Assembly (NCBI GenBank): GCA_947460875.1
Contig: CANHGR010000008.1
Span: 1-64,000, forward strand
DNA: 64,000 nucleotides
Origin: Sphingobacteriaceae bacterium
GTDB taxonomy: Bacteria; Bacteroidota; Bacteroidia; Sphingobacteriales; Sphingobacteriaceae
Direction: 5' to 3'
Positions within the stretch are counted from its first letter, which is position 1; every line of letters begins with the position of its first letter. A model generated the notes under the pieces. It saw only the letters and a list, made by a program, of their open reading frames with translations, was not told where the DNA came from and ran no database searches. Below are positions 23,899-24,702 of the stretch, piece after piece. Both the position numbers and the translations under genes were made by a program.

Positions 23899-23928
23899 AA
23901 AAAAGCATCCGATGGGCAGACACTTTTT
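23899..23928 (-). terminator. terminator-like hairpin downstream of the tRNA-like gene
   Basis: On the minus strand AAAAAGTGTC (23928-23919) pairs with GATGCTTTTT, with two G-T wobbles, and ends in a run of six T. It lies about 40 bp past the 3' end of the tRNA-like sequence, in the right orientation to end its transcript. Confidence 0.45.
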
Positions 23929-23966
23929 CAACTAACCAATTATAACCTAAAAATAAACGAAAGTAG

Positions 23967-24076
23967 CTGTAGGGGAAGGAGTCGAACCTTCAAGGAGTGG
24001 TTAGCCCGTTACCGGATTTCCCAGATTCTCCGCCACCGAGACAAGGAGGTGTGTCTGCCAATTTCACCACCCTACA
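23967..24076 (-). tRNA. atypical class II tRNA-like gene (110 nt, anticodon position reads GTC)
   Basis: Minus strand 24076 to 23967. Seen: a perfect 7-bp acceptor stem TGTAGGG/CCCTACA with G at position 73; D-arm GTG...CAC with a loop containing TTGGCAGA; T-arm GAAGG-TTCGACT-CCTTC, perfect. The anticodon arm CCTCC-TTGTCTC-GGTGG has one T-T mismatch and places GTC at 34-36. The variable region is 41 nt (24032-23992), far above the 13-20 usual for Leu or Ser tRNAs; it can fold as GGAG/CTCC with an inner CCG-GTAA-CGG hairpin. CCA is not encoded. Body shape is Leu/Ser-type, and G73 favours Ser over Leu, but the anticodon would be Asp. It has a full-consensus promoter and a terminator-like hairpin. 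It could be functional, a decoy or regulatory tRNA-like RNA, or a decaying tRNA. Confidence 0.6.
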
Positions 24077-24110
24077 GTGTTTTAACAACCGTTTTATTGA
24101 TTGCGTAAAT

Positions 24111-24143
24111 CAAATGTAAGGCATTTATAATATCAATTGCAAA
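24111..24143 (-). promoter_or_regulatory. consensus promoter of the tRNA-like gene
   Basis: Minus-strand TTTG (24143-24140), 21-bp spacer, TACATTTG (24118-24111), an exact match to TTTG-N19-21-TAnnTTTG. Predicted start near 24107, about 30 bases before the mature 5' end. It faces away from the Lrp gene, so the tRNA-like sequence is the only visible gene it could serve. Confidence 0.55.
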
Positions 24144-24219
24144 TATTTTAACAAAATATTTCAATTTTTACTATTTTATTATTTAATTCGCATATAAATT
24201 ATTATTGTACAAAATTCAA

Positions 24220-24702
24220 ATGGAAAAACGGATGCAAAATTTAGAAATTGATAATCTGGACATGCAAATACTGGGATTCTTGCTAGAAGACGCCACTATC
24301 CCATATACTGAAATTGCTAAAAGACTAATTGTTTCCGGTGGGACGATTCATGTGAGAATGAAAAAAATGCAAGACATGGGGATAATAAAAGGATCGAATC
24401 TTATTATTGATGCCCAAAAAATAGGGTATGACGTTTGCGCTTTCTTAGGCATTTTCCTTGAAAAAGGATCCATTTACAAAGATGCCGTAGAAAAACTGAA
24501 GAAAGTAAAGGAGATTGTTGAATTACATTATTGCACCGGCACTTATAGCATGTTTGCAAAAATTATCTGTCGGGATACCAACCACCTTAGGGAAGTATTG
24601 AACGAAGATATTCAAGCAATAGAAGGAATTCAACGCACTGAAACATTTATATCTCTCGAAGAGAGTATTAAACGCCAGATTGATCTAGCAAGACAAGCCT
24701 AA
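24220..24702 (+). CDS. Lrp/AsnC-family transcriptional regulator
   Basis: 160 residues from ATG 24220 (a further ATG at 24232 is possible; the TTG at 24205 is less likely). N-terminal winged helix-turn-helix: LDMQILGFLLEDATIPYTEIAKRL then VSGGTIHVRMKKMQDMG; C-terminal RAM domain with the beta-alpha-beta pattern (YDVCAFLGIFLEKGS, VELHYCTGTYSMFAKIIC). Such regulators usually sense amino acids as octamers. It stands alone, converging on pdhB with 23 bp between stops; its targets are unknown. Confidence 0.9.
   Translation: MEKRMQNLEIDNLDMQILGFLLEDATIPYTEIAKRLIVSGGTIHVRMKKMQDMGIIKGSNLIIDAQKIGYDVCAFLGIFLEKGSIYKDAVEKLKKVKEIVELHYCTGTYSMFAKIICRDTNHLREVLNEDIQAIEGIQRTETFISLEESIKRQIDLARQA

Follow-up and report, generated by a model that had tools for sequence, protein, structure and literature searches.

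A class-wide tRNA-like RNA of Bacteroidia next to an AsnC-like regulator gene: a possible non-decoding carrier for the conversion of aspartate to asparagine

The window analysed here is a stretch of 64,000 nucleotides (nt) from a Sphingobacteriaceae bacterium (assembly GCA_947460875.1, contig CANHGR010000008.1, positions 1 to 64,000), and the subject of this study is a compact transcription unit on its minus strand which, as read from the sequence, comprises a promoter, a 110-nt RNA resembling a transfer RNA (tRNA), a conserved trailer and a terminator-like hairpin. A gene for an AsnC-like regulator diverges from it. The features of the locus are as follows.

24205 to 24702, plus strand: AsnC-like regulator gene, 165 amino acids, divergent (NCBIfam, PDB match and conserved head-to-head arrangement)
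24111 to 24143, minus strand: promoter TTTG-N21-TACATTTG, with TTTG at 24143-24140 and TACATTTG at 24118-24111 (read from the sequence)
23967 to 24076, minus strand: tRNA-like RNA, 110 nt from U1 to G73, CCA not encoded (Rfam tRNA, models R1 and R2)
24038 to 24044, minus strand: anticodon loop UUGUCUC, with GUC at 24042-24040 and C38 at 24038 (class-wide counts)
23992 to 24032, minus strand: 41-nt variable domain with GGAG/CUCC and UGG/CCA stems, a conserved GAAA/CUAA internal loop and a variable tip hairpin (covariation)
23931 to 23948, minus strand: conserved trailer AGGUUAUAAUUGGUUAGU, which also occurs as stand-alone small units (comparison with relatives)
23899 to 23927, minus strand: terminator-like hairpin with loop CCCAT and a U-run (sequence; in relatives the stems vary and the hairpin and loop are mostly retained)

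The Rfam tRNA model matches 23967-24076 (minus strand) at 35 bits, above its cut-off of 29, and the same interval scores 135.6 bits with R1 and 116.4 bits with R2, two covariance models described below; ARAGORN, run on this region, reported neither a tRNA nor a transfer-messenger RNA (tmRNA). The RNA has an acceptor stem of seven base pairs, a D arm, an anticodon arm, a perfect T arm and G73 at 23967, and its G18-G19 and T loop are intact. The class II shape, 41-nt variable region, GUC and G73 given in an earlier note on this DNA were thus confirmed at 24076-23967, with the correction that the anticodon stem CCUCC/GGUGG of the window member contains a U.U mismatch. The variable region does exceed normal length, as the note had held, the RNA measuring 110 nt against 80-88 nt for the leucine and serine tRNAs of its own genome. 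The promoter and terminator-like hairpin are likewise present, the fit of the former to the known Bacteroidota consensus being judged by eye (the sigma-70 scanner is designed for other promoters), and relatives at the syntenic locus also have promoter-like sequence upstream. Because the single-sequence folding energy of the RNA is unremarkable (z -0.42), the case for it rests on comparative evidence.

Relatives were found by blastn in 56 of 100 related genomes, many of the matches spanning the whole unit and some being short pieces of the trailer or of the leucine-like D arm only. Many genera have full-length copies, often several to a genome and in tandem, with six or more in genomes G004 and G047; the named ones belong to Pedobacter, Mucilaginibacter, Arcticibacter, Daejeonella, Solitalea, Hufsiella and others. 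R1, built from 28 of these relatives, recovered members of 107-171 nt, hence with a variable arm beyond the ordinary, at more than 61 bits in about 19 families when 296 genomes of the class Bacteroidia were searched; ordinary leucine tRNAs (about 80-87 nt) score about 60 bits or less, apart from one 84-nt match at 65. The class-wide model R2 separates more sharply, with members at 103 bits or above and all else at 69 or below, and in a sample of the phylum it found no sequence outside the class at a member-level score. Presence calls used strict filters, and weak members may be missed. Within Sphingobacteriaceae, compensatory changes affect the acceptor, D, variable and T stems and the anticodon stem CCUCC/GGUGG is invariant; across the class, changes on both sides of a pair are seen in every helix, the anticodon stem included (173 cells, compared with 44 in shuffles). 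All five stems therefore carry compensatory changes, 98.6% of alignment cells are paired, and the covariation far exceeds that of shuffled and slid controls. A decaying tRNA-Leu gene, to which the leucine-like D arm and the absence of an ARAGORN call might point, is refuted by compensatory changes in all stems and by deep conservation and is hardly credible; on this the earlier note was borne out. With the tRNA-Leu of the same genomes the RNA shares the D arm UGGUGAAAUUGGCAGACAC and the class II shape, but it has G73 instead of A73, GUC, and a variable domain of about 40-100 nt with a conserved internal loop. A tmRNA was also rejected, as neither Rfam nor ARAGORN gave a tmRNA match and the anticodon arm is conserved, and so was an origin in a mobile element, since blastn against plasmid and phage collections gave no match. 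No convincing Rfam match was obtained for the long members of the family, and no description of it was found in the open-access literature or the Rfam library searched. Two variants may be recorded separately: in Pedobacter-type loci (L098 3548-3689, L018 1710-1853 and others) a second, diverged copy lies directly downstream and has a longer variable domain with GGGUUGACCAC, and locus L279 (genome G116, family f49; family labels are arbitrary) holds a shortened 76-nt relative with U1-A72, G73 and the loop CUAUCUC, the genome concerned also encoding AsnA.

The positions conserved in this family, counted over 67 distinct sequences from the whole class (66 for most anticodon-loop positions), include those that mark an aspartate acceptor. 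Five determinants are strong for bacterial aspartyl-tRNA synthetase (AspRS), namely G73, G34, U35, C36 and C38 (PMC9976931), and the family retains the set: G73 in 67/67, G34 in 63/66, U35 and C36 each in 66/66 and intact wherever the loop is, and C38 in 65/67. The pair G2-C71 is equally constant (67/67), and G10, present in the window member, is kept in 19/67. In one member the anticodon arm, CCGCC-CUGUCGC-GGCGG, closely resembles that of the window genome's own tRNA-Asp, CCGCC-CUGUCAC-GGCGG. Ordinary decoding tRNAs keep U33 and a purine at position 37, and the family keeps neither: position 33 is U in 52, G in 9 and C in 5 of 66 sequences, and position 37 is U in 57, G in 6, C in 3 and never A, so that a pyrimidine stands there in 60/66 and a purine in 6/66. 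The RNA therefore agrees with bacterial tRNA-Asp in the five determinants, G2-C71 and, in some members, the anticodon arm, but differs from it in U1-A72 in place of G1-C72, the absence of U20a, the long variable domain, pyrimidine 37 and a U33 that is not kept.

A tRNA-Asp isoacceptor that decodes in the ordinary way despite its odd form would fit GUC and the aspartate determinants, and a large variable arm need not preclude decoding, given that some aptamer-tagged tRNAs are translationally active (PMC7590224). However, U33 is not conserved, position 37 is a pyrimidine in nearly all sequences, a canonical tRNA-Asp is already present in the genome, and U1-A72 would invite amidation, and we regard such an isoacceptor as quite improbable. 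The earlier note had suggested either a relative of the serine-accepting allo-tRNAs, which would place serine at aspartate codons, or a non-decoding RNA. The second part stands, in that class-wide conservation and covariation point to a functional, possibly non-decoding tRNA-like RNA. The first does not. The long variable arm, G73 and G2-C71 would suit seryl-tRNA synthetase (SerRS), and allo-tRNAs (8/4 or 9/3 branch; PMC7609411) share with the RNA a class II shape, G73 and GUC among their frequent anticodons. However, serine determinants include C72 and C11-G24 (PMC9976931); here position 72 is A in 67/67 and C11-G24 is found in only 10/67. The acceptor branch is modelled with 7 + 5 pairs, SerRS ignores the anticodon and so would leave the conserved GUC and C38 unexplained, and allo-tRNAs also differ from the RNA in its chromosomal, class-wide spread and its AsnC-like neighbour. 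Serine identity was accordingly rejected as very improbable, and with the aspartate determinants kept, misinsertion of serine at aspartate codons is unlikely.

Beyond the anticodon arm, the variable domain begins with a base stem of the GGAG/CUCC type followed by an internal loop, approximately GANAAA/CUAA, and ends in a freely varying tip, a longer form with GGGUUGACCAC being found in 21/67 sequences. We take the internal loop to resemble the UAA/GAN motif, and its conservation (L159-L228) suggests a tertiary contact or a protein site. The anticodon-stem sequence CACCUCCUU presumably matches the 3' end of 16S ribosomal RNA; an anti-Shine-Dalgarno role was nevertheless rejected, as the genome contains the 9-mer 9 times and its reversed control 19 times, and other families have other paired sequences in its place.

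The pair U1-A72 is present in 67/67 sequences, and 116 of 117 parsed members have one base only at position 20, hence no U20a; in contrast, G1-C72 and GGUUA are found in the tRNA-Asp of the window's genome. U1-A72 allows the amidotransferase GatCAB to amidate Asp-tRNA-Asn, and G1-C72 together with U20a blocks the amidation of tRNA-Asp (PMC9976931), so that in the marks for charging the RNA agrees with tRNA-Asp and in those for amidation with tRNA-Asn. With GatB as a proxy for GatCAB, all 54 carriers among the 296 genomes (by R1 and R2 searches; one, G205, is marginal at 61.6 bits) have GatB above cut-off, compared with 165 of the 242 non-carriers (Fisher p 2e-8, kinship ignored). The two also vary together within families: ten f1 genomes have both and three neither, the corresponding numbers are five and one in f2 and five and two in f36, and in f16 one genome has both, one GatB only and four neither. 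Conditioned on family, the chance of such a link is about 1e-5 by genome and about 1e-3 by genus, in a test picked after the data had been seen. Many genomes have GatB but not the RNA, and GatB must therefore have other roles. Asparaginyl-tRNA synthetase (AsnRS) is nearly universal in the sampled genomes, and GatCAB is therefore not required for ordinary Asn-tRNA, and glutaminyl-tRNA synthetase (GlnRS) without GatCAB has been reported as the rule in Bacteroidetes (12/14 genomes; PMC3927822). Bacteroidetes are also among the genera described as having AsnRS, GlnRS and GatCAB but no asparagine synthetase, with possible asparagine synthesis on tRNA-Asn (PMC4206432). In our sample RNA-negative genomes of f1 (G016, G037) and f2 (G169) have AsnA, as do no more than three carriers, and homologues of AsnB occur nearly everywhere, although these matches may include paralogues with other functions.

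In 15 families the RNA lies head-to-head with a gene of the Lrp/AsnC type, the promoter region being shared and the other neighbours differing. The product of 24205-24702 (plus strand) scores 177.3 bits with the NCBIfam AsnC model (cut-off 227), 52 with Lrp and at most 75 with other members, and its best PDB match is AsnC (2cg4, 1.4e-34; next match 6e-20). By sequence it is thus closest to AsnC, and AsnC-like rather than proven AsnC. Escherichia coli AsnC adjoins and activates asnA, so that the RNA stands where an asparagine-synthesis gene would. In RNA-negative genomes, the flanks of twelve asnA loci contained no AsnC-like gene. No common gene was found in the flanks of RNA loci that lack the AsnC-like gene, and a partner other than AsnC was rejected on that ground. 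Whatever its exact function, the RNA forms a structured family that spans the class and is deeply linked to an AsnC-like regulator. One rival reading has the RNA charged with aspartate and barred from decoding for some other use, as an aspartate donor to a lipid, peptide or wall component or as an aspartylation sensor, the GatB link reflecting shared ancestry. It would fit retained aspartate determinants beside lost decoding features, and asparagine synthetases that are not depleted in carriers. However, it leaves the invariant U1-A72 and absent U20a unexplained, AsnC and no transferase gene recurs beside the RNA, and RNA and GatB are jointly absent in several families; we consider it unlikely.

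Downstream of the RNA, Sphingobacteriaceae have AGGUUUAUAAUUGGUUAGU and then a hairpin. The combination of GGTTTATAATTGGTTAGT and a hairpin also occurs in the window's and related genomes as stand-alone, promoter-driven small units, near-invariant in Sphingobacteriaceae, and is apparently an unnamed small RNA (sRNA) family.

23948 to 23899, minus strand (window); L144, L145 and L147; G000:C1:137560, C6:75239 and C6:75574: GGTTTATAATTGGTTAGT plus hairpin units

The trailer is missing from sampled members of the other families and had no convincing Rfam match; we regard it as a distinct sRNA-like element specific to this lineage. UGGUUAG within the trailer of the window (23948-23931) is complementary to CUAACCA of the variable arm (24004-23998, minus strand), so the precursor could refold. 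At L146 (G000:C6:75429, minus strand) an opposite-strand unit that has a promoter-like and a terminator-like sequence of its own lies between two trailer-type units, and the near-complementarity of its 5' part, ACTAACCAACTATAACCT, to the conserved trailer element makes it a possible sponge. Reduced tRNA-like parts are seen in L124, L138, L140 and L066 (f1, small genomes): the acceptor and T arm are kept, the anticodon arm is lost, and the trailer element still stands 3' of them. The whole might then be a tRNA-shaped regulatory RNA in which the trailer sRNA is the active part, charging is irrelevant and the tRNA fold serves processing or stability. The near-invariance of the trailer, its stand-alone units, its persistence in Sphingobacterium, Parapedobacter and Olivibacter, where the syntenic locus has lost the tRNA part, and the reduced forms that precede it would all fit. 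However, the trailer is limited to Sphingobacteriaceae and the RNA occurs in about 19 families, and the position-specific retention of AspRS determinants would need a separate reason; we hold this reading to be distinctly unlikely.

Taken as a whole, the data lead us to favour, tentatively and with confidence a little short of even, a model in which the RNA, itself not decoding, is dedicated to carrying aspartate while this is amidated to asparagine, with control of the AsnC type. AspRS would charge the RNA through G34, U35, C36, C38 and G73, and GatCAB would recognise U1-A72 and the missing U20a and amidate the bound aspartate. Asparagine on a GUC-bearing RNA would corrupt aspartate codons, so that loss of decoding features is to be expected, as is seen, and the lost U33 and purine 37 may keep the charged RNA from inserting asparagine there. 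The asparagine would then be released or passed on, and the divergent AsnC-like regulator may tune transcription of the RNA to asparagine supply. Among the closest parallels is tRNA-Asn in its role as substrate of AspRS and GatCAB in tRNA-dependent asparagine synthesis (Deinococcus, Thermus, Bdellovibrio; PMC4206432), which is alike in U1-A72, the absence of U20a, GatCAB beside AsnRS and aspartate as the likely first amino acid. The RNA differs in bearing GUC where tRNA-Asn has GUU, a change that would open it to a discriminating AspRS, and in a leucine-like body, a large variable domain and a U33 and purine 37 that are not kept, so that it would not decode. The non-proteinogenic tRNA-Gly used in Staphylococcus aureus cell-wall synthesis (mentioned in PMC8007984) is likewise chargeable and not kept for translation, though its amino acid and destination are other, and G18-G19 and the T loop are intact in the RNA.

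Several points weigh against this carrier model. Its weakest steps are the presumed release of asparagine and the need for the RNA given AsnB, a homologue of which is found in most carriers, the window's genome included. Depletion of asparagine synthetases was not found, AsnA and AsnB being jointly absent in 6 of 54 carriers and 22 of 242 other genomes. Ordinary tRNA-Asn also has U1-A72, and a non-discriminating AspRS would therefore make the RNA unnecessary. Further, U1-A72 replaces G1-C72, which helps AspRS to position the 3' end; the regulator falls below the NCBIfam AsnC cut-off; the AsnC-like gene does not adjoin the RNA in f3, f63, f64 and f66 or at some f15 loci; forms reduced by loss of the anticodon arm occur in certain genomes of f1; and the presence of GlnRS in carriers is presumed from the rule for Bacteroidetes (PMC3927822).

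The broader proposal, that a class of bacteria uses a dedicated, ribosome-barred tRNA as a biosynthetic carrier on which AspRS and GatCAB convert aspartate to asparagine, controlled by a regulator that responds to asparagine, is put forward more guardedly still. If true, a tRNA gene would have evolved for amino-acid synthesis and been removed from decoding, serving metabolism and not translation, and this would explain the retention of GatCAB in many Bacteroidota that possess AsnRS and usually GlnRS as well, which for some Bacteroidetes has been remarked on as a puzzle (PMC4206432).
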